Shown in pieces: positions 2,193 to 42,364 of a stretch of 42,364 bases of DNA; position 1 is the stretch's first letter, and every line of letters starts with the position of its first letter. The translations under genes were made by a program, and so were the position numbers. The notes under the pieces are model-generated. The model worked only from the letters and a program-made list of their open reading frames with translations. It ran no database searches and was not told the DNA's origin. The stretch is taken from positions 1 through 42,364 of the forward strand of contig MWCI01000025.1 of NCBI GenBank assembly GCA_002069965.1, in the 5' to 3' direction. This DNA comes from Spirochaetes bacterium ADurb.Bin218. GTDB lineage: Bacteria; Spirochaetota; UBA4802; UBA5550.

Positions 2193-2534
2193 TCAAGCTT
2201 TACCCACTTTATTATCAAACCATTTTCCCTTTGACAAACTTTCAAGCTCACCTGTTGCCTCTGCACCATGCCTTATGGGATAATTGGGCCTGAATACTCC
2301 AATCCCTGCAGAAATATGGAAGATATCATTAAAACATGTAAACTTAGAAAATTTATTGTGAATTTCTATAGAAAAATCTATTAAATCCTTCCAGTTGCCA
2401 ACTGCGAAGAGATCATCTCCTCCTGAATATGTTATGTATATGTTATGCTCTTCTGCTATGTAATTTATGCACCACAAAAAGAAGTTATTCATGCTTCTAC
2501 TTAAGGTTGCAAAGCGCGAAATAGTCTTTGCCAC
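2193..2534 (-). pseudogene. csm1: Cas10/Csm1 palm-domain fragment (type III-A CRISPR)
   Basis: This 113-codon frame matches only the second palm (cyclase) domain of Csm1/Cas10, the large subunit of type III-A effector complexes that makes cyclic oligoadenylates. Visible are ISRFATLSRS, the catalytic YSGGDDLFAVGNW motif (GGDD near residue 40) and HISAGIGVFRPNYPIRHGAE. Full Csm1 is about 700-850 residues, so the HD nuclease domain, first palm and zinc domain are absent, and the C-terminal part breaks off after LESLSKG with an unrelated tail. The GTG at 2532-2534 is only the first possible start in an in-frame remnant and overlaps the 3' end of the cas6 fragment, so a deletion fused the two genes. 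No functional product is expected. Confidence 0.85.
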
Positions 2535-3157
2535 TGCAGATGATTTACTATATCAACAAAATCTATTGTTTGTAAAGTTTTACCTTCTTTCTTGAGCCTG
2601 CATGGAGTCAAAAATTCTATTTCAACTATATTAGATACTTTTTGATATTCAAGGGAAACTGGCAAAAAATTTCCATTTTCATAGGTCAGTTCCTCTAAGT
2701 TATAATTACGGCCATCTACTACATTAGTAATGTGACATAGGCTAAATTTACCTCTATGTTTTCCAAGGCCTTTTGCTCCGAGCTTTTCAATAGAAAAAAC
2801 AATATGAGGTAAATATTTGATAGCACTGCCTACTATGGTTATGGAAAATGCAAAATTTTCTCCTGCCTTGAGGCTTATAGGTCCATTAAACAATGGAGTT
2901 ATTGCAAAGGGATGAGGATAGTGAGTTGCTTTTTTCATATTGGAAAGATTCTGCAGCGAGACACTTTCAAAAACTCTTGCATAGGGACATGTCTCTGCCA
3001 GAAGGCAATCCCTGCAGATTGACTTCTTTTTACCCATGACGCAAAAAGTATGCTTCATGGACATACCCATGCCACCACGCAAAGCAATGGAAGGATATTT
3101 TTCCAAAAGCAGTTCGGTCTCTACCTTAAAATTTAAGCAGAAGCTAAATAATTCCAT
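2501..3157 (-). pseudogene. cas6: Cas6 crRNA-processing endoribonuclease, 3' end lost
   Basis: Cas6 cleaves CRISPR transcripts within repeats. The product shows the PF10040-type pattern: SIALRGGMGMSMKHTFC near the N-terminus, a C-x2-C...C-x-Y cluster (CRDCLLAETCPYARVFE), a HPFAITPLF segment, and the glycine-rich RAMP loop GLGKHRGKFSLCHI, followed by LTPCRLKKEGK. I prefer the ATG at 3157 to the GTG at 3187 because family members begin close to this hydrophobic strand. The family match fades at ~VNHLQ and the frame stops just inside csm1 sequence, so the last helix is lost. The N-terminal 200 residues look undamaged, and residual activity cannot be ruled out. An inverted repeat CTTAAGTG/CACTTAAG lies just upstream of the start. 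Confidence 0.75.
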
Positions 3158-3396
3158 AATTTTCTTAAGTGATAAAAAGTTATGCACTTAAGTTTTTTTA
3201 TCTTCAACCTCACCAGCCCCTTGCGTGATGATACTAAGCTCAAAAATCACATTGAGCTACCACCCATTGAAATAAATCCTTAAAACTTTTCCAATACCAA
3301 TAATCATATTTAAATCTATTGACATTAAGCAATAAATCTTTAATAATAAATCAATTATCTCAGAGGAGGCATTGAAAATAGTATTTATCATCAATG

Positions 3397-32028: not shown

Positions 32029-32040
32029 TTAACTTACCTC

Positions 32041-32344
32041 TTAATTTTTTTACTCCACTAAAAATGTTTTGGTTCTTGGATGATTTTTCAATCATCCCCA
32101 TCTTTTCTCTTAATTTTTTTACTTCAATAAAAATGTTTTGGTTCTTGGATGATTTTTCAATCATCCTCATCTTTTCTCTTAATTTTTTAACTCAAATAAA
32201 AAAGTTTTGGTTCTTGGATGATTTTTCAATCATCCCCATCTTTTCTCTTAATTTTTTACTCCAATAAAAATGTTTTGGTTCTTGGATGATTTTTCAATCA
32301 TCCCCATCTTTTCTCTTAATTTTTTACTCCAATAAAAAAGTTTC
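32041..32344. repeat. 69-bp tandem repeat array upstream of glmS
   Basis: Four consecutive units begin at 32041, 32110, 32179 and 32248 (periods 69, 69, 69 and 68), followed by a partial fifth unit from 32316 that merges into the 3' end of the next gene. Each full unit contains GGATGATTTTTCAATCATCC (a 7-bp stem with a 6-nt loop), TTTTGGTTCTTGGATG and a poly-T tract. Units differ by a few substitutions and one T. Read in the glmS direction each unit also carries an in-frame ATGGGGATGATTGAAAAATC-like start. The last partial unit includes the stop codon of the upstream gene, so the array seems to have grown from that gene's 3' end. Confidence 0.9.
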
Positions 32345-33868: not shown

Positions 33869-35131
33869 TCATAGCCTAATGCCCCATGGCCTTAAAACCT
33901 TCTGTAAAGCATTAAGCCCCTGCATTGCAGAGAGAAATATGCCATAATTAGTATAAGGAATTCCCACAGAGTCAAGATCCCTGATCCGGGCCATCATCTT
34001 CTGTCTGCTTATCATGCAACCACCGCAATGAATGATAAGTGAATATTTCGTAAGATTTTTGTTATCCTGAAACTCTCTGCCAAAGTTATGCTCAACATTA
34101 ACCCCGGGGAATTTTTTTTGAATAATTGAGGGGATCTGCACTGTCCCTATATCTTCACCTATTCTGCTATGATTGCAGGCCTCTGCGATAAGTATGGAAT
34201 CACCAGGCTTTAAATCTGATAGAGCTTTAATCCCTTCTACAAAAGAAGCAAGTTTTCCTCCGCTCATGTAGTTGATCATCACTATAGAAAAAGTTGTAAG
34301 ATCAATATCTTCAGGACACCATGATGACATTATATCCATAGCCTGAGAATCTGTTATTATGCAGGCTGGACGTTGTCCCAATCCATTGAGCATATTAAAA
34401 AATCTCTTTTTCTCAAAATCATGTAAATCCCCTCTTGCTGCAGATAGATCAAGCCTGAAGGAAACAGGATAAGCCCAGTGACGTGTAATATACTCCTCTA
34501 CCATGGACTGAGGACGCAGAAATCTTCCAGGGGGAGTTTCCTCATCCATAGGGATAATCAATATATAAAACCTATCCCTCTTAACAGCAGGTAGCAAAGG
34601 AATATCAGACTTAAGATGCTGAAAATTATTCAATATAAATTGCAATAGCTCTGCTCTGAAGGAGAAATCATTTGCCCTGATCCTTATCTTTTTATGAAAT
34701 TTAAGCAAATTTATCGAATCTTCAATAAGTTCTATTTTCTGCTCATCATGCTTATTAAATATATTGTAAATGATAAGAATCTGCTTATCCATTTCCCGGG
34801 CCTCTTCAATCAATTCCCGCTCAGAGGTAAAATCCGAAGCAGAAGGATCTATAACCAGCAAAAGAAGATCACATTCCTTTAGATCGTTTAATACCTTTTT
34901 TCGCTTTTTTTGTCCAAGCTCACCAGATTCATCAATGCCTGCAGTGTCAAAAATTCTGACAGGGCCAAAACCATGCAACTCAAAAAGAGCTATTTTTGTA
35001 TCTGCAGTTGTCCCAGGAGTTGAGTCTACGATTGATGTTTCCTGCTGTGTAAGGAGATTCATTACAGAGCTTTTGCCTGCATTCATCTTCCCAAATATTC
35101 CTATATTGACTCTGTCAACTACCACTGACAT
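33869..35131 (-). CDS. hydF: [FeFe]-hydrogenase maturation GTPase HydF
   Basis: HydF is the scaffold on which the 2Fe subcluster is assembled and from which it is delivered to apo-HydA. The 420 residues comprise an N-terminal GTPase (G1 GKMNAGKSSVMNLL near 15, PGTTADTKIALFEL, G3 IFDTAGIDESGE near 60, NIFNKHDEQ as the NKxD-like element), a middle dimerisation domain, and the C-terminal cluster domain with C-N-H-S-R near 315 and HCGGCM near 366, which fit the family C-x-H...H-C-x2-C ligands. Its start lies inside the 3' end of hydE (17-nt overlap), so the maturases are co-translated. Confidence 0.95.
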   Translation of the reverse strand: MSVVVDRVNIGIFGKMNAGKSSVMNLLTQQETSIVDSTPGTTADTKIALFELHGFGPVRIFDTAGIDESGELGQKKRKKVLNDLKECDLLLLVIDPSASDFTSERELIEEAREMDKQILIIYNIFNKHDEQKIELIEDSINLLKFHKKIRIRANDFSFRAELLQFILNNFQHLKSDIPLLPAVKRDRFYILIIPMDEETPPGRFLRPQSMVEEYITRHWAYPVSFRLDLSAARGDLHDFEKKRFFNMLNGLGQRPACIITDSQAMDIMSSWCPEDIDLTTFSIVMINYMSGGKLASFVEGIKALSDLKPGDSILIAEACNHSRIGEDIGTVQIPSIIQKKFPGVNVEHNFGREFQDNKNLTKYSLIIHCGGCMISRQKMMARIRDLDSVGIPYTNYGIFLSAMQGLNALQKVLRPWGIRL

Positions 35132-36167
35132 CTTGTGCCCTCCTTAAAAAATGAACTGAAACTCCATGGTCCTTAAAATCTGGAATAAGACCAAGCCTAA
35201 TAATTCTTTCTTTTAAATCATCAATAAATTCCTTAGAATAAACACTTCCTACAGGTTTATTATTATATAGACTATAACTTGATCTAAACTCAAAGGGGGA
35301 AAATTGAGGCATAACAACATTTGCACCTGCCAGAAGCCCAAGTTCCCTGCCATCGGGAGACAATGTCTCCAGTGCAGTAGTTGAGGCAATATTGATATCT
35401 GGCATAATATGACGCAAAAGTGCAATCATGTTAAGACCAAGATTTAAACTCTCCTGGGGCCTATATTCAATACCACCCAATGGGGTATCTGCATGAGGGA
35501 TATATGGCCCCATTCCACACATGTCAATGTCCATTTCCTTAAAAAATAGAAGATCCTCTGCAAGGTTCTCAAGACTTTGATATGGTGAGTTAATCATAAC
35601 ACCAGTTCCAACTTGAAATCCAATCTCTCTAAGATCCCTCAAACATCTAATTCTATTTTCAAAGCTCATTGATTCAGGATGAAGTTTTTTGTAGTGAACT
35701 GGATCCGATGTTTCTATGCGCAATAAATAGCGACTTGCTCCACTGTTAAAAAATTCTTCATAGACCTCTCTTGTCTGTTCTCCTACAGAAAGAGTTATAC
35801 TCACCTGAGGATATTTTTCTTTAATGAGCTTTAAAATATACACAACGTAAGAGGTAAACTTTCGATCTCTTCTTTCGCCAGACTGTAGCACAATAGAGGT
35901 AATACCTGTTGATAACACCTCTCCCACTGATTGTAATATCTCCTCAAAGGACAGTTCATATCTGCTAATCTTTTTATTACTGCAGCGTATTCCGCAATAC
36001 AAACAGTCATTTATGCAAATATTGGAAAACTCTATAAGGCCCCTGAAATAGACTTTATCAGATAAAGTATTTCTCCTTATTTCAGAGGCCTTTCTATGAA
36101 ATTCCTCCTGTTCCCTGCCACGTAGTTCCAGCAGCTCAATGATTTCTTTTTTAGAAATAGATGTCAC
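35115..36167 (-). CDS. hydE: [FeFe]-hydrogenase maturation radical SAM enzyme HydE
   Basis: HydE is a radical SAM enzyme of H-cluster synthesis that supplies part of the di-iron precursor. The ~350 residues carry the CxxxCxxC cluster motif in FSNICINDCLYCGIRCSN near residue 50, SIVLQSGERRD near 95, LLRIETSDPVHYKKLHP near 155, GTGVMINSPYQSLENLA and MCGMGPYIPHADTPL near 220, all HydE landmarks. It overlaps hydG upstream and hydF downstream. The frame opens with a GTG at 36173, but a second GTG at 36167 has AAGG six bases upstream and is the more likely start. No ATG is available near the N-terminus. Confidence 0.95.
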   Translation of the reverse strand: MTSISKKEIIELLELRGREQEEFHRKASEIRRNTLSDKVYFRGLIEFSNICINDCLYCGIRCSNKKISRYELSFEEILQSVGEVLSTGITSIVLQSGERRDRKFTSYVVYILKLIKEKYPQVSITLSVGEQTREVYEEFFNSGASRYLLRIETSDPVHYKKLHPESMSFENRIRCLRDLREIGFQVGTGVMINSPYQSLENLAEDLLFFKEMDIDMCGMGPYIPHADTPLGGIEYRPQESLNLGLNMIALLRHIMPDINIASTTALETLSPDGRELGLLAGANVVMPQFSPFEFRSSYSLYNNKPVGSVYSKEFIDDLKERIIRLGLIPDFKDHGVSVHFLRRAQDVSGS

Positions 36168-37542
36168 GTTCACCCTTTTCTATTTTTTCAAGATTTTTGA
36201 CAGTGGCATCTTTACGTGCCTCATCAGGAATCTCCTGTAGTTCTTTTTCAATCAAAGCCTCTCCGAGCTTTCTCGTCTCTTCATCTGCATAATCCACAAG
36301 GTATTCCTTCAATGTCAAAAGAGCATTGGGCTGACAATGAAGCTTAATAAGACCAGGTTTTGCCATATCCATAAAATCCTTACCAACTCTACCTCTCCTA
36401 TAACAGCCTGTGCAAAAAGAAGGAATATATCCATGCTTGATTATTGACTTTATAACCTCTCCAGTGCTCCTTGTGTCATTAAGTGAAAACTGACCATGAT
36501 CCCTTGCAGAATCATCAGCACTATAGCCACCAGGATCTGTTCTGGAGCCTGCACTCATCTGAGATACTCCAAGATCAATGAGTTTGTCTCTCATCTGTGG
36601 ACTCTCCCTTGTAGAAAGAATAATTCCAGTATAGGGCACAGAGCAGCGCAAAACAGCAACAATCTTCATAAAGTCATCATCACTTACAGGATGAGGGACG
36701 TTTTCTGCGCAAGGGGCATTTTTTGCATACTCAATTCTCGGTATAGAGATAGTATGAGGCCCTATGCTATATTTTGACATGAGATGCTCTGCGTGTTGCA
36801 ATAAAGCAAGAGTCTCAAACTTCCAGTTATAAAGACCAAAGAGAGCACCAATGCCAACATCGTGCAGCCCATTCTCAAGGGCTCTATCCATAACAAGGAG
36901 ACGCCACAGAAAATCCTTTTTCTTTCCAGAGGGATGCATTTTATCGTAAGTTGCTCTGTGATAGGTTTCCTGAAAAACAGTATATGTTCCAATTTTTTTA
37001 GTAGCAATTTTTTTGAATTCCTCAGGGCTCAAAGGGGCAATCTCTACATTAATTCTTCTGATAGAGCTGCCCTTTGAATCGCGGACAGAATAAGCAGCAT
37101 CAATTGTCTCAAGGAAATAATCAAAGGAGGATCTTGCAGGATGCTCGCCCATTAGCATAAGTATTCTTTTGTGACCCTGCTCCAAAATAAGCCTTACCTC
37201 ATCTTTTACCTCATCAATGGTGAGACACCTTCGCTCCATCTCTTTATTATCCATCCTAAAACCACAGTAGAGGCAATTGTTTGAACAATAATTGGATACG
37301 TAAAGAGGAGCAAATAGAACCATCCTATTGCCATAAATCTTTTGCTTAACCTTAAGAGCAGTTTCAAAAAGAAGATTTTTATCTTCCTCGTTATCTATAT
37401 TGAGAAGCACTGCCGCCTCTTCAACAGAAAGCCCTACAAGAGTCTCAGCCTTTGCAAGTATCTCTTTGACCTCTGTTGAACCAGTTACTTTTTTATCAAG
37501 AAGGGACTGCAACCTTTCTTCATCGATAAATGAATGTTCCAT
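36151..37542 (-). CDS. hydG: [FeFe]-hydrogenase maturation tyrosine lyase HydG
   Basis: HydG splits tyrosine into p-cresol, CO and CN-, which become the diatomic ligands of the H-cluster iron. The 463 residues have the radical SAM motif CSNNCLYC in YVSNYCSNNCLYCGFRMDN near 88, GEHPARSSFDYFLETI near 145, TYHRATYDKMHPSGKKKDF near 195, SAGSRTDPGGYS near 340, and the second cluster motif near 385 (CTGCYRRGRVGKDFMD) with its third Cys in KLHCQPNALLTLKEYL, all diagnostic for HydG over ThiH. It is the first gene of hydGEF, with GGAAGG eight bases before the ATG. The upstream 225 nt hold a palindrome and two hairpins. Confidence 0.96.
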   Translation of the reverse strand: MEHSFIDEERLQSLLDKKVTGSTEVKEILAKAETLVGLSVEEAAVLLNIDNEEDKNLLFETALKVKQKIYGNRMVLFAPLYVSNYCSNNCLYCGFRMDNKEMERRCLTIDEVKDEVRLILEQGHKRILMLMGEHPARSSFDYFLETIDAAYSVRDSKGSSIRRINVEIAPLSPEEFKKIATKKIGTYTVFQETYHRATYDKMHPSGKKKDFLWRLLVMDRALENGLHDVGIGALFGLYNWKFETLALLQHAEHLMSKYSIGPHTISIPRIEYAKNAPCAENVPHPVSDDDFMKIVAVLRCSVPYTGIILSTRESPQMRDKLIDLGVSQMSAGSRTDPGGYSADDSARDHGQFSLNDTRSTGEVIKSIIKHGYIPSFCTGCYRRGRVGKDFMDMAKPGLIKLHCQPNALLTLKEYLVDYADEETRKLGEALIEKELQEIPDEARKDATVKNLEKIEKGERDIYF

Positions 37543-37767: not shown

Positions 37768-39549
37768 CTAAGCTCTACTTCTCCGTGGAGTGTAGTGCGT
37801 ATGCAACAACTCATGGGAGTGATGTCCCAATGGCTCATGAAGAAATTCTTCATATATAAGCTTTATCTCTGGATTATCATGAGATTTGCGCAATGGAAGT
37901 GAACTATCTGCAACATATATAGCATCAGCTCTTTTCTTGCGAATCTCAGGAGAAGTTGGTATTGGCTGCCCACCTCCTCCAATACATCCACCAGGGCATG
38001 CCATAATTTCTATAAAATGAAAGTTAGCTTTTCCAGATTTAATCTCTTTCATCAATTTATCTGCATTTGCAAGACCATGAGCAACTGCCACGCTAAGCTC
38101 TGCACCTTCAAGAAATTTCCACTCATCTTTTACATTTTCAATCTTGATCTTTGCACTTTTGATACCTTCCATTCCACGAACAGGCTCAATATTCAGATTT
38201 TTAAAAGGTACCTCTCTCCCTGTGACAATCTCGTATGCAGTTCTAAGAGCAGCCTCCATAACCCCACCAGTTGTTCCAAAAATTACAGCAGCACCTGTTG
38301 ACTCTCCCATTATGCTGTCATACTTCTCTTCTGGCAGAGATCTAAAATCAATTCCAGCCTGCCTTATCATATGCGCAAGCTCTCTTGTAGTGAGAACATA
38401 ATCAACATCCCTGAAACCACTGCTGTTCATCTCTGGTCTTGCAGCCTCAAATTTTTTAGCTGTGCATGGCATTATTGAAACAGAGATCATCCTGGCAGGA
38501 TCAATCCCCTTTTTCTTTGCATAATAGGTCTTTGCTAAGGCTCCAAACATCTGCTGAGGGGATTTACAGGTTGAGAGATTATCAAGCAGCTCCGGATACT
38601 GATGCTCAATAAACTTAATCCATCCTGGGGAGCAGGATGTCATCATTGGAAGAGCCACATTTTTTTTCTCAACCAGTGCCTCTTTTAGACGAAGAAGTAA
38701 CTCTGTCCCTTCTTCTATTATGGTAAGGTCTGCTGTAAAATCTGTATCAAGAACGGAATTAAATCCGAGAGCCTTTAAAGCCGCAACCATCTTTCCTGTG
38801 ACAATAGCACCAGGTTCCATTCCAAGGGCCTCTCCCAGCCCTACCCTTACTGCAGGAGCAGTTTGCACAACAACATGCACCTGAGGATCATCAATTGCAG
38901 CCCAGACATCCTCTATGTAATTTCTCTCTGTAAGAGCACCAGTTGGGCACCTATTTATACACTGACCACAGTTAGTGCAAACAACATAGTGCATGGGCTT
39001 ATTCATAAAAGTAGAAACCTTTGTATGATTTCCTTTATTCACTGACCACAGAGCAGATACTCCCTGCAGCTCAGCACAGGTTCTAACGCATCTTAAACAT
39101 CTGATACACTTACTATCATCTTTTACGATAGCAGGAGATGATATATCAATGGGGCTTCTATCTGCGACATCGATAAACTTATCTCCATCAGCAAGATATT
39201 CCTGAGCAAGAGCCTGTAGCTCACAGTTTCCGCTTCTGTAACAGGAGGTACACTCCCCGGCATGTTCAGAGAGAAGCAATTCTATAATAGTCTTTCTGGC
39301 TTCTCTGACCTTCTTTGTATTAGTGTATATTTGCATACCTTCAGCAGCAGGGACTGCACAGGAGGCAACAAGTGCCCTTGTTCCTTTTTGCTCAACAACA
39401 CAGACCCTGCAGTTGCCTGCAATACACAAATCCTCATGATGACAAAGAGTTGGGATCCTCACACCCACTTGCTTTGCAGCATTAAGAATTGTGGTTCCTT
39501 TATCAACAGTTACCTTTTTATCATTTATGGTTAATGTTACCTTTTCCAT
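37768..39549 (-). CDS. hndD: [FeFe] hydrogenase catalytic subunit (HndD/HydA type)
   Basis: Catalytic subunit of a cytoplasmic NAD-linked [FeFe] hydrogenase (group A). Order of parts over 593 residues: an N-terminal [2Fe-2S] domain (CHHEDLCIAGNCRVC near 36-50), the His-ligated cluster HAGECTSCYRSGNC near 95, two [4Fe-4S] ferredoxin motifs (CIRCLRCVRTC near 147 and CTNCGQCINRCP near 190), then the H-domain with L1 TSCSPGWIKFIE near 306, L2 MPCTAKKFEAARPE near 360 and L3 EIMACPGGCIGGGGQP near 497. L1 has Ser where the textbook motif TSCCPxW has the second Cys. The C-terminus GHHSHELLHTHYTPR is typical. No signal peptide is present. It follows hndC by 18 nt with GGAG eight bases before the ATG. 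Confidence 0.95.
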   Translation of the reverse strand: MEKVTLTINDKKVTVDKGTTILNAAKQVGVRIPTLCHHEDLCIAGNCRVCVVEQKGTRALVASCAVPAAEGMQIYTNTKKVREARKTIIELLLSEHAGECTSCYRSGNCELQALAQEYLADGDKFIDVADRSPIDISSPAIVKDDSKCIRCLRCVRTCAELQGVSALWSVNKGNHTKVSTFMNKPMHYVVCTNCGQCINRCPTGALTERNYIEDVWAAIDDPQVHVVVQTAPAVRVGLGEALGMEPGAIVTGKMVAALKALGFNSVLDTDFTADLTIIEEGTELLLRLKEALVEKKNVALPMMTSCSPGWIKFIEHQYPELLDNLSTCKSPQQMFGALAKTYYAKKKGIDPARMISVSIMPCTAKKFEAARPEMNSSGFRDVDYVLTTRELAHMIRQAGIDFRSLPEEKYDSIMGESTGAAVIFGTTGGVMEAALRTAYEIVTGREVPFKNLNIEPVRGMEGIKSAKIKIENVKDEWKFLEGAELSVAVAHGLANADKLMKEIKSGKANFHFIEIMACPGGCIGGGGQPIPTSPEIRKKRADAIYVADSSLPLRKSHDNPEIKLIYEEFLHEPLGHHSHELLHTHYTPRRSRA

Positions 39550-39567: not shown

Positions 39568-40752
39568 TTAGTAGCAAATCTCCTCACGGAAATGCTCTGT
39601 AATTGAATTAAAGGGGCTTGCAACCGACTGTCCAAGGCCACATTTGGAAGCAACTGACATAGTTGCAGCAAGTTTACGCAATTCATCAAGATAACTCATT
39701 GGTTTTTCACCAGCTCTTATGGCCTCAATCCCCTTCAAAAGCTGCTGGCATCCAACTCTGCATGGTGTGCATTGTCCACAAGACTCTTCTTCAAAAAATT
39801 CAAGGAAATTTTTCAATACATGATACATGGAACGTGAGCTATTAAAAAGCATCATGGAACCACCAGTTGGCACTCCCTCAAAGCCAATTACTGTTGTTGC
39901 AAAATTTTTCCTTGGAACACAAACACCAGAGGCTCCTCCAACCTGAACAGCCTTTGTGTCTCCATCACCAAAGATATTGACAAACTCCTCTATCGTCATA
40001 CCCAATGGCAGTTCATATACTCCCTTTACTGAGCAATCTCCAGAGACAGAAAACACTTTGCCTCCCATAGAATCCTTTGTTCCTATGGATTTGAAGTAAT
40101 CAGCACCCTTTTCTATAATAGTTGCCACATAGGCAAGAGTCTCCACATTATTAACAACAGTTGGCTCATTCATATAACCTGCACCAACTGGAAATGGAGG
40201 TTTATTTCGTGGCTCTCCACGATTTCCTTCCATAGATTCAATGAGAGCTGTTTCTTCTCCACAAACGTATGCTCCGCTGCCAGAGCGGACATTCACAGAA
40301 AAATTAATTCCCTTTGAATTGAATATCTTATTCCATCGGTCGCAATTGGATTGCAGTTTATCTTTTAAGAAATTATACTCACCCCTCAGATATATATAGC
40401 CCTCTGATGCACCAACTGCATAAGCGCATATAGCCATGCCTGTTATAACCTTATCTGATTGTTCATCAAGAATTCTTCTATCTTTAAAAGTCCCTGGTTC
40501 ACCTTCATCGGCATTGCATATAACATACTTTTTATTTCCAGAGGCAGAGGCAGCTCCTCTCCACTTGATTCCTGTTGGAAATCCAGCTCCACCTCGTCCT
40601 CGCAAGCCAGAATCTGTGACCATATTTATAATATCATCAGGCTTCATGGAAAGCCCTTTAGCAAGAATAGCCCCACAGTCTGTGTCTTTAAATATGAGGT
40701 TCACTCTCTCCTGCATTTTTTCCAAAAGTTTATTTTTATCTGAAACAGACAT
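39568..40752 (-). CDS. hndC: NADH-binding flavoprotein subunit of the hydrogenase (NuoF/HndC type)
   Basis: Diaphorase-type subunit that carries FMN, NAD(H) and one [4Fe-4S] cluster and passes electrons to or from the catalytic subunit. Motifs: GLRGRGGAGFPTGIKWRGA near 50 (NAD/FMN loop), CNADEGEPGTFKDR near 80, YIYLRGEY near 118, SGAYVCGEETALIESMEG near 160, and the cluster motif ESCGQCTPCRVGC near 327 with the fourth Cys in SKCGLGQ near 370. At 394 residues it is the bare NuoF core: the N-terminal thioredoxin-like [2Fe-2S] domain and the C-terminal two-[4Fe-4S] domain of the longer HndC/HydB proteins are absent. GGAG lies upstream. It is separated from hndA by the receiver gene. Confidence 0.92.
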   Translation of the reverse strand: MSVSDKNKLLEKMQERVNLIFKDTDCGAILAKGLSMKPDDIINMVTDSGLRGRGGAGFPTGIKWRGAASASGNKKYVICNADEGEPGTFKDRRILDEQSDKVITGMAICAYAVGASEGYIYLRGEYNFLKDKLQSNCDRWNKIFNSKGINFSVNVRSGSGAYVCGEETALIESMEGNRGEPRNKPPFPVGAGYMNEPTVVNNVETLAYVATIIEKGADYFKSIGTKDSMGGKVFSVSGDCSVKGVYELPLGMTIEEFVNIFGDGDTKAVQVGGASGVCVPRKNFATTVIGFEGVPTGGSMMLFNSSRSMYHVLKNFLEFFEEESCGQCTPCRVGCQQLLKGIEAIRAGEKPMSYLDELRKLAATMSVASKCGLGQSVASPFNSITEHFREEICY

Positions 40753-40792: not shown

Positions 40793-41149
40793 TTATTTTA
40801 CCAGTTCAGTAAGCTCCTCTGCATTAACAGGTTTAGACATTGCTCCATTAAATCCAATCTCATGGATATCAAGAGTTCCTGCAGTTTCGTCTCCTACTGC
40901 ACTGAGGAGATAAATTTTGACATTCTTATCTTTTGATCTAATTTCTCTACAAAGTCTTATTCCTGAATCCATCTTTTCCATCATGAGATCCAGAAATACA
41001 ACATCTGGCTTTTCTTTGTTGAACTCATCCATACAATCCTTCTCATTGCCTGCTGTGAATACTATATGCCCTTCACTTGCCAGTATTGCCTTCATGGATT
41101 CGATGATATCCATATCATCATCCACCAGAAGTATCTTCTTTGTCGCCAT
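40793..41149 (-). CDS. Stand-alone response-regulator receiver protein in the hydrogenase operon
   Basis: A 118-residue CheY-like receiver with no output domain. The acidic pocket is in ILLVDDDMDIIE (residues 6-17), the phospho-acceptor Asp in VVFLDLMMEKMDSG near 54, the switch Ser in YLLSAVGDE near 82 and the conserved Lys in MSKPV near 104. Phosphorylation should therefore work. It lies between hndA and hndC with AGGAGG before its ATG and a 9-nt gap to hndA, so it is co-expressed with the hydrogenase and occupies the place where some relatives have hndB. No histidine kinase is in the window. A close relative is cut by the right edge (42238-42364). How it acts on the hydrogenase, if it does, is unknown. 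Confidence 0.9.
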   Translation of the reverse strand: MATKKILLVDDDMDIIESMKAILASEGHIVFTAGNEKDCMDEFNKEKPDVVFLDLMMEKMDSGIRLCREIRSKDKNVKIYLLSAVGDETAGTLDIHEIGFNGAMSKPVNAEELTELVK

Positions 41150-41158
41150 AGACTCCTC

Positions 41159-41629
41159 CTATTGTTTTTCCATATTACGATATTTCTGAACAACTGCAAC
41201 AACACTTTCAGGATTGAGTTCAGTATATACATCATCGTTGACAAGCATTGCAGGTCCCTGATGACACCAACCCATACAGTTTGTCTCAAGTAGAGTAAAA
41301 AGTCCATCTGGGGTAGTTTCTCCAACTCCTACTTTAAGCTCATTTTTAAGAGCATCAATGATTGCTGACTTTCCTGCCATATCACAGGATATTGTCCTGC
41401 ATACCCTTATAACATACCGGCCTCTGGGCTCTGTATCAAGAAAAGAATAAAATGTAGCAACACCATAGACTTCCGATGGCGACATCCCGAATGCAGCAGC
41501 CACATCCTCCAGCAAATCCTCTTTTAGCCATCTCTCTTTTGAGATAACATACTGAAGAACCGGAAGAAGGCTCTCGCGTCTTGTGCCATGTTTTGCTATG
41601 GCTTCCGAAAGAGACTTATTAGTTGTCAT
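41159..41629 (-). CDS. hndA: NADH-dehydrogenase-like [2Fe-2S] subunit of the hydrogenase (NuoE/HndA type)
   Basis: Small electron-transfer subunit of the NAD-linked hydrogenase, with a thioredoxin-like [2Fe-2S] fold. The 156 residues show the NuoE pattern: VLQYVISKERWLKEDLLEDV, FGMSPSEVYGVATFYSFL near 50, the first cluster pair in VCRTISCDMAG near 80, and the second pair in ETNCMGWCHQGPAMLVND near 118. The frame opens at an ATG at 41635, but GGGGG directly abuts it; the ATG at 41629 stands six bases from that Shine-Dalgarno site and is the likelier start. It is the first gene of the operon. The 170 nt upstream are AT-rich and hold TTGACG near 41680 (minus strand) without a good -10 partner. 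Confidence 0.93.
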   Translation of the reverse strand: MTTNKSLSEAIAKHGTRRESLLPVLQYVISKERWLKEDLLEDVAAAFGMSPSEVYGVATFYSFLDTEPRGRYVIRVCRTISCDMAGKSAIIDALKNELKVGVGETTPDGLFTLLETNCMGWCHQGPAMLVNDDVYTELNPESVVAVVQKYRNMEKQ

Positions 41630-41799
41630 AAACATCCCCCATAGTGTTTTTTTGTCAGTTAAATAAAAAAAATAATTTCGTCAACATAAAATAACACTTT
41701 TTATAAAAAAATATTCCCAAACATATATTTATTAAAAATTTGGTAACAACAAATTTTAATATGTCTTGATTGATGGATTAGATTCTTTATAGAGAAAAA

Positions 41800-42210
41800 A
41801 TGAATATTAACAGACAAAAATTTCTTAAATTAACTGGCGTGGCAATAGCAATGCTTGCAGTTGGTAATGCAATATCCTGCAATCCTGATGCAAAAATTGA
41901 AAAAATTGAGCATATCTACACATCTATGGACTCCCCTGATATTTCTAAATACGAAAAAATCTTTTTTGTTCAGGTTAACCAAAACAGATGCCAAGGATGC
42001 CACACTTGCAATGATTATTGCGCACTGACATAATAGATAGCAAAAGCCATGGTGGGCTTCATAGAGTCTATAGCCCGACGGATGTGTCAACTGTGGTCAA
42101 GCAATATATCCCATGAATTACTTCATACAGAATACTTTGACAGATCGTCAGCTGTCAAAAAAATAAAAGCTTCAGAAATAAAGCTTAAATTTTCAAAAAT
42201 GTCTATCTGA
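41800..42210 (+). pseudogene. Relic of a second [FeFe] hydrogenase with Tat-like signal
   Basis: The first 77 codons read like the start of an exported [FeFe] hydrogenase: a Tat/lipoprotein-like leader (MNINRQKFLKLTGVAIAM...AISCNP), then FFVQVNQNRCQGCHTCNDYC, half of a ferredoxin motif, and a stop. Homology continues in other frames: IDSKSHGGLHRVYSPT (41 bp on), then GCVNCGQAIYP, the second ferredoxin cluster, one base shifted. After a junction near 42100 comes SHELLHTEYFDRSSAVKKIK, the typical C-terminal tail of [FeFe] hydrogenases (compare SHELLHTHY in the intact enzyme). So there are at least two frameshifts and one large deletion that removed the whole H-domain. No activity is possible. 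It is divergent from the intact hnd operon. Confidence 0.78.
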
Positions 42211-42230
42211 GCCTTTAAAAGGCTCAGATA
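42204..42230 (-). terminator. Hairpin after the second receiver gene
   Basis: TATCTGAGCC and GGCTCAGATA pair perfectly around TTTAAAA, nine bases after the stop of the partial receiver on the minus strand, followed by GACATTTTTG. It also covers the stop codon of the hydrogenase relic on the plus strand, so it probably ends both transcripts. Confidence 0.65.
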
Positions 42231-42237
42231 AAAAACA

Positions 42238-42364
42238 TTAAGCCTGCGCAATTATATTTAAAAGATAATCTGGAGAAATAGGTTTTTCCAGTGAGCCATT
42301 AAAGCCTACTTCATGGACATCATGTGTGCCTGCATTATCACTACCAACAGAGCTGAGCATATAT
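42238..42364 (-). CDS. Second response-regulator receiver protein, C-terminal part (cut by window edge)
   Basis: Read from the reverse strand, the last ~41 codons give YMLSSVGSDNAGTHDVHEVG then FNGSLEKPISPDYLLNIIAQ and a final Ala. This aligns without gaps to the end of the receiver in the hnd operon (YLLSAVGDETAGTLDIHEIG, FNGAMSKPVNAEELTELV), including the switch Ser and the conserved Lys-Pro. It is therefore a paralogue from a local duplication. The N-terminal part with the phospho-acceptor Asp lies beyond the right edge. It also lacks any output domain. It probably ends another hydrogenase-related operon in the flanking DNA. Confidence 0.8.
   Translation of the reverse strand, partial: YMLSSVGSDNAGTHDVHEVGFNGSLEKPISPDYLLNIIAQA

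Follow-up and report, generated by a model that had tools for sequence, protein, structure and literature searches.

Stand-alone receivers of a hydrogenase-linked subfamily in an order of Spirochaetota, and their possible tie to an H2-sensing kinase

In the regulatory [NiFe] hydrogenases of the HoxBC-HoxJ-HoxA and HupUV systems, an H2-sensing domain drives a histidine kinase, and the output is a DNA-binding transcription regulator. Among the well-studied receivers Spo0F, CheY and DivK, we know of none that is a partner of a redox enzyme. On the [FeFe] side, the available excerpts of the HydDB description list the kinase-linked group C1 as putative, with its role undetermined (PMC5037454); hydrogenases of group C1/HydS are often encoded near catalytic hydrogenases, and the excerpts at hand mention no response regulator as the partner of group C (PMC5037454, PMC8163306, PMC11406978). 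In the literature searched, single-domain response regulators occur with hydrogenases only as passing mentions, namely a receiver gene adjoining a [NiFe] hydrogenase in Syntrophaceticus schinkii (PMC5113046) and the mvh/hdr cluster of Desulfobacterium autotrophicum with its histidine kinase and CheY-like genes (PMC2702500); these reports go no further than a possible role in H2 sensing and propose neither a receiver family nor a mechanism.

The window analyzed here, 42,364 nucleotides long, makes up the whole of contig C25, part of a draft genome of 3.03 Mb in 160 contigs (G000; its sister genomes are G001 and G002). Its minus strand carries one tight operon in the order hndA, REC, hndC, hndD, hydG, hydE, hydF. 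The hndA gene (41159-41635) encodes a NuoE-like [2Fe-2S] subunit with thioredoxin fold of 158 aa (PF01257, 163.9 bits), REC (40793-41149) a stand-alone receiver of 118 aa (PF00072) belonging to the hydrogenase-linked subfamily described below, hndC (39568-40752) a NuoF-like FMN/NADH subunit of 394 aa, and hndD (37768-39549) the catalytic subunit of an [FeFe] hydrogenase of 593 aa (PF02906, 333 bits). In HndD, the first H-cluster motif is TSCSPGW, the usual form being TSCCPxW. The maturase genes follow: hydG (36151-37542; Radical SAM and BATS domains), hydE (35115-36173; Radical SAM domain), whose product is 63% identical to that of the REC-adjoining hydE of G001, and hydF (33869-35131; HydF_tetramer and MMR_HSR1 domains). 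Elsewhere in the window, cas10-like remains at 2193-3187 (minus strand), beside prmA, are apparently broken up over two frames (a 113-aa ORF that matches Cas10-Cmr2_palm2 with 90 bits, and an overlapping 228-aa ORF without match), and a tandem array at 32038-32343, between glmS and a small ORF, consists of 4.5 copies of a 69-bp unit with 94% matches and yields a spurious repetitive plus-strand ORF.

HndD passes the NF040763 model for group A6, the 'NADH-dependent' [FeFe] hydrogenases, with 887.8 bits against a cut-off of 765. The match fits a non-bifurcating enzyme, but we rejected it as proof of such chemistry: the T. maritima control passes the same model, and the A6 match therefore does not discriminate the non-bifurcating type. 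Electron-bifurcating enzymes of the Hnd/HydABC kind are recognized by a beta subunit with the extra Fe-S domains B3, B4 and B5, and HndC consists of the NuoF core only (PF01512 and PF10589), with further Fe-S domains absent both before and after it. According to the excerpts at hand, missing B3/B4 has been linked to loss of bifurcation (PMC11406978), and HndC resembles in this respect the NADH-dependent, non-bifurcating hydrogenases described there for Syntrophomonas and Syntrophus (PMC7311640, PMC11406978). The electron-bifurcating tetramer of Solidesulfovibrio fructosivorans, hndABCD, shares homologues of hndA, hndC and hndD in the same order; it differs from the locus described here in that a receiver occupies the position of hndB between hndA and hndC, and in that our HndC is without the Fe-S domains linked to bifurcation.

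The preliminary description of this DNA had a CheY-like protein without output domain built into the hnd operon, and this holds in full: an intact REC gene stands between hndA and hndC, the REC domain spans residues 6-117 of 118, and the stop codon follows directly. The match to Response_reg (PF00072) is 84.8 bits (curated cut-off 30.2), and the set of phospho-switch residues is complete, with the acid pair D11/D12, the phospho-acceptor D54, the switch residue S83 and K106. REC is translationally coupled to hndA, its ribosome site AGGAGG overlapping the hndA stop codon (TAGGAGGAGTCTATG), and 40 bases separate it from hndC. An AlphaFold model built on the subfamily alignment of 41 sequences shows the complete (beta-alpha)5 fold with a mean pLDDT of 86.6, and it is close to the receivers of Spo0F, NtrX and YycF. 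The NCBIfam model for DVU0259/DivK gives 53.2 bits against a cut-off of 160, which places REC outside that family. That REC might be an Fe-S protein replacing HndB was considered and rejected, as there is no invariant Cys among the 41 aligned subfamily sequences.

A search of 59 genomes at E<=1e-20 recovered 56 members of the subfamily in 33 genomes, all within one order of Spirochaetota. Of these members, 48 lie at most 2.5 kb from genes for a hydrogenase, a formate dehydrogenase or partner signalling proteins: 25 stand directly after hoxW, which closes a hoxEFUYHW set encoding a group-3d type [NiFe] hydrogenase, five stand between hndA and hndC, and others adjoin hydE, a HydS-kinase fusion, an NAD-formate dehydrogenase, or a pair of kinase genes next to a group-4-like hydrogenase. 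REC between hndA and hndC is thus found five times, in genomes of three families (G000, G002, G042, G025 and G034; families f1, f5 and f7), and the absence of the receiver from the hnd operons of all relatives, which would have spoken against the proposal made for it earlier, is not what the survey found, the gene being kept in the last four of these genomes. In the source genome, the subfamily profile ranks the receiver of the Hox locus (contig C3) first, the hnd receiver second and a receiver on contig C16 (C16:13803), which adjoins a group-4-like small subunit, third among 59 REC matches; all three of these top full-length matches, at 198, 175 and 87 bits, belong to hydrogenase loci, and the other REC domains score lower. 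More distant relatives in other phyla likewise tend to lie in hydrogenase loci, with [NiFe] hydrogenases in Nitrospirota, Fermentibacteria, Anaerolineae and Spirochaetales MAGs; in Saccharicenans the neighbor is a formate dehydrogenase. Among the matches listed, such a neighbor was found for 10 of 21 distant receivers at >=80 bits and for 2 of 48 below (p = 5e-5), and the best-scoring ones are mostly single-domain. The association of the receiver subfamily with enzymes of H2 and formate metabolism is firm. It could still be argued that REC is a co-transcribed receiver of some unrelated pathway, as many hnd operons do without it and 8 of the 56 members have none of the gene classes checked within 2.5 kb (one of these eight, L063, stands behind hypB/hypF-like genes). 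The subfamily is, however, repeatedly linked to H2 and formate enzymes of four kinds, across several families of the order, and distant receivers in other phyla show such linkage too; this makes the explanation very improbable, and the genome survey already disfavors it.

The receiver is not a core part of the enzyme. In about 40 other Spirochaetota loci inspected around A6-type hydrogenases, hndA and hndC never have a receiver between them (in two of these loci, L289 and L292, a stand-alone receiver lies downstream), and within the same order G024 has hndA-hndC-hndD without it (L241). REC as a core subunit of Hnd was rejected on these grounds, and we regard it as an accessory part. G015 has a Hox set without receiver; both G024 and G015, the latter only 73% complete, also lack the receiver-linked kinase family.

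In the tree, the subfamily forms a group of 42 rows with support of 100/99. The hnd, hydE-linked and HydS-linked receivers fall into one clade (99/95), the Hox and formate-dehydrogenase receivers into a second (98/94) and those of the kinase pairs into a third (100/99). Judged from this tree, the subclades follow the type of enzyme (hnd/hydE/HydS, Hox/Fdh, group-4-like); an exception is the HydS-linked receiver of G011 (L046), which falls in the Hox/formate-dehydrogenase clade. In the subfamily alignment (A1, 41 sequences), D11, D12, D54, S83 and K106 are invariant. The aromatic residue of the Tyr/Thr switch at K-3 is absent from all 41, with V, A, S or T in its place, which makes an output through a CheY-like Tyr switch unlikely; the output surface would therefore be set in another way, or the phosphate passed on. 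Positions 14, 15, 18, 21 and 22, which we take to be those through which Spo0F contacts its kinase and phosphotransferase, hardly differ between the hnd-type and Hox/formate-dehydrogenase clades, and most class-specific residues lie in alpha3, the beta4-alpha4 region and alpha5. This is the pattern to be expected from a common kinase with differing targets, although the alpha3-alpha5 faces vary in most receivers anyway.

The missing K-3 aromatic bears on the possibility that the receiver never touches an enzyme. A phosphorelay intermediate of the Spo0F type takes its phosphate from a kinase and hands it to an HPt, and the receiver might likewise be a phosphate carrier or sink between H2-sensing or Cache kinases and a distant DNA-binding regulator. 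Spo0F, too, is without the K-3 aromatic, as are all 41 members, and structures of Spo0F are among the closest folds. Moreover, hybrids of the REC-HisKA-HATPase type adjoin several subfamily receivers, and multi-step relays are therefore present. No HPt gene was noticed nearby. Against a relay stand the lack of any DNA-binding response regulator seen beside subfamily receivers, the split of the clades by enzyme class, for which a common relay has no need, and the own copy per enzyme. We consider such a carrier possible, if doubtful; its place in the operon, which on that account would keep the level of the signal in step with that of the enzyme and nothing more, is likewise a doubtful reading.

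A second receiver of the subfamily is present at the right end of the window, where its last 41 residues (42241-42364, minus strand) are cut by the contig end. It scores 43.6 bits against the A1 subfamily profile. It had been described as a near-identical paralogue of the hnd receiver; the two share 18 of 39 residues (46%), so that a recent duplication was rejected, and the fragment is identical to the receivers G001:C390 and G002:C1:410246 at 31 of 39 positions (79%). As the G001 receiver stands directly before hydE, the contig-end gene looks like an ortholog of a hydE-linked receiver and not like a copy of the hnd one. The earlier statement that both genes keep the phospho-switch residues visible in the window stands for the hnd receiver, which has them all; D11, D12 and D54 of the second copy lie beyond 42364, the last position of C25. 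No 5' part of this receiver and no contig overlapping the right end of C25 were found in the source assembly, nor was the gene upstream of the orthologous G002 receiver found in the source genome.

The hydrogenase relic reported between the two receivers proved to be real, a decayed exported (TAT-type) [FeFe] hydrogenase together with the end of its small subunit, at about 41800-42190 on the plus strand (tblastn with the intact G002 pair, 5e-27 and 1e-08). It consists of the N-terminal third with frameshifts, followed by the end of the small subunit, the middle being deleted. In G002, G042, G025 and G034 an intact pair of large and small subunit is divergent from hndA, and in G042 a hydF-like gene sits between hndA and the pair. 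The intact pairs (L035:5917-7544, L041:4388-6220, L042:6251-7859 and L044:5657-7281) encode an H-domain protein of ~420 aa and a small-subunit protein of ~105 aa, both with TAT-like signal sequences.

The preliminary description placed the receiver under a sensor kinase, and a plausible orphan kinase exists in the source genome, though not near the hnd operon. It is a fusion protein of 669 aa (G000:C47:15440-17446) that contains Fe-S domains, an H-domain of [FeFe] hydrogenases (Fe_hyd_lg_C, 162 bits), a further FeS domain, HisKA (56 bits) and HATPase_c (91.5 bits), and it keeps Cys residues in the three H-cluster motifs (TTCP, GPC and NCCEGC). Its domains make it a putative sensory [FeFe] hydrogenase with kinase, similar to HydDB group C1. 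No response regulator gene lies beside it in the source genome. In G007, a homologue 70% identical to it lies next to an hnd-clade receiver, with hydG and the Hox operon close by, and in G011 another fusion kinase adjoins a receiver; in G048, outside the order, hndC, hndD, a fusion kinase, a divergent REC and a REC-kinase hybrid form one run. In G042, which has the hnd receiver and is 83% complete, no full-length fusion kinase was found. The kinase module of the fusion is 61% identical to that of one Cache-HAMP kinase of the source genome (the next reaches 40%), and the sequence around the phospho-histidine is nearly alike in both; relatives of this Cache-HAMP kinase adjoin subfamily receivers in five other genomes. 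Tested over 46 genomes from the order, the receiver co-occurs with the kinase family (29/33 with versus 3/13 without, p = 5e-5) and likewise with the Hox/Hnd diaphorase (p = 2e-5), both on raw counts uncorrected for shared ancestry. We hold the link of the receivers to an H2-sensing kinase with moderate confidence.

Several further genes accompany these loci. A second hydrogenase-kinase fusion, 45% identical and immediately followed by a REC-kinase hybrid (~380 aa), is found in G001, G002 and G007 (L249:189-1334, L250:6355-7500 and L251:2576-3715). The source genome encodes a third H-domain protein on contig C14 (L053:8306-9868), of 520 aa and with several Fe-S domains, convergent to which is a signalling gene that contains REC. 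Beside receivers of the hnd clade, G007, G002 and G001 encode a protein of ~235 aa (L045:3220-3927, L038:8059-8769 and L040:8503-8976) that is perhaps another partner in signalling, and its G007 copy has no match in Pfam or NCBIfam. Proteins of ~165 aa with a similar N-terminus (L244:6366-6860, L253:8524-9018, L117:8394-8906 and L075:5299-5811), two of which were examined and have no Pfam match, adjoin Cache kinases or receivers, mostly near FdhA-like genes, in the order and in Saccharicenans.

The matching receivers and the H2-sensing kinase suggest that the cell adjusts these enzymes directly by protein phosphorylation. We therefore hypothesize that the hnd receiver is a dedicated single-domain response regulator of the NADH-linked [FeFe] hydrogenase, the signal passing from an H2-sensing kinase through the receivers to the enzymes themselves; we put this forward tentatively, as a proposal somewhat short of probable, and direct action on the enzyme is, to our inference, the best single explanation. 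The H2-responsive kinase, with its H-domain and HisKA/HATPase_c module, would phosphorylate D54, perhaps joined by the Cache-HAMP kinase that shares its kinase module. The phosphorylated receiver would then use its alpha3/alpha4/alpha5 side to dock onto the enzyme it belongs to, probably at the NuoE/NuoF-like diaphorase part, and would change the activity of the enzyme or its coupling to NAD(H). On the Hox [NiFe] hydrogenase, the NAD-formate dehydrogenase and the group-4-like complex, sister receivers may act likewise, and a single H2 or redox signal could thereby set several near-equilibrium enzymes together. Hnd, Hox and NAD-formate dehydrogenase presumably run near equilibrium, and a fast, H2-dependent control of activity would therefore be useful. 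Of this scheme, the sequences show the subfamily with its genomic ties, the fusion kinase and the conserved active site; we infer that the fusion kinase passes on its phosphate, that the receiver binds the enzyme directly and which way the effect goes. The fuller version, in which an H2-sensing fusion kinase feeds enzyme-specific receivers that bind and gate hydrogenases and formate dehydrogenases, so that H2 metabolism is set without transcription, seems to us rather unlikely as a whole.

The receiver could also control maturases and assembly (the HoxW protease, HydE/F/G, HypF, FdhD) instead of the finished enzyme. Its position after hoxW in 25 operons would agree with this, as would its place beside hydE in G001, beside a hypF-like gene in G004 and, by sequence resemblance only, beside an FdhD-like gene in G011. 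Nevertheless, maturase genes are an ordinary part of these loci, and in the hnd operons the receiver is flanked by structural genes on both sides and hydGEF come downstream, after hndD; a checkpoint of this kind is improbable. Direct action of the receiver on the enzyme, if true, would be a case of two-component signalling that acts on a redox enzyme and not on transcription or motility. The subfamily bears on the means by which anaerobes, at low H2, control in which direction and how fast their reversible NAD-linked hydrogenases and formate dehydrogenases run, and also on the question of what the putative sensory [FeFe] hydrogenases of group C act on, and it offers concrete sets of kinase, receiver and enzyme.

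Compared with the systems described so far, the proposed signalling route is closest on its sensory side to hydrogenases of group C1/HydS, which in the available excerpts are likewise a putative H2-sensing H-domain joined to a histidine kinase (PMC5037454, PMC8163306, PMC11406978); it differs from them, as far as those excerpts go, in that the likely receivers are single-domain proteins encoded inside the operons of catalytic enzymes. With Spo0F, CheY and DivK the receivers share the fold, the active site and, if our reading is right, action through protein contacts, but the subfamily is without the aromatic switch of CheY and DivK. As in HoxBC-HoxJ-HoxA and HupUV, an H2-sensing hydrogenase domain goes together with a histidine kinase; unlike an output of the HoxA type, the receiver has no output domain and is present as a separate copy for each enzyme.
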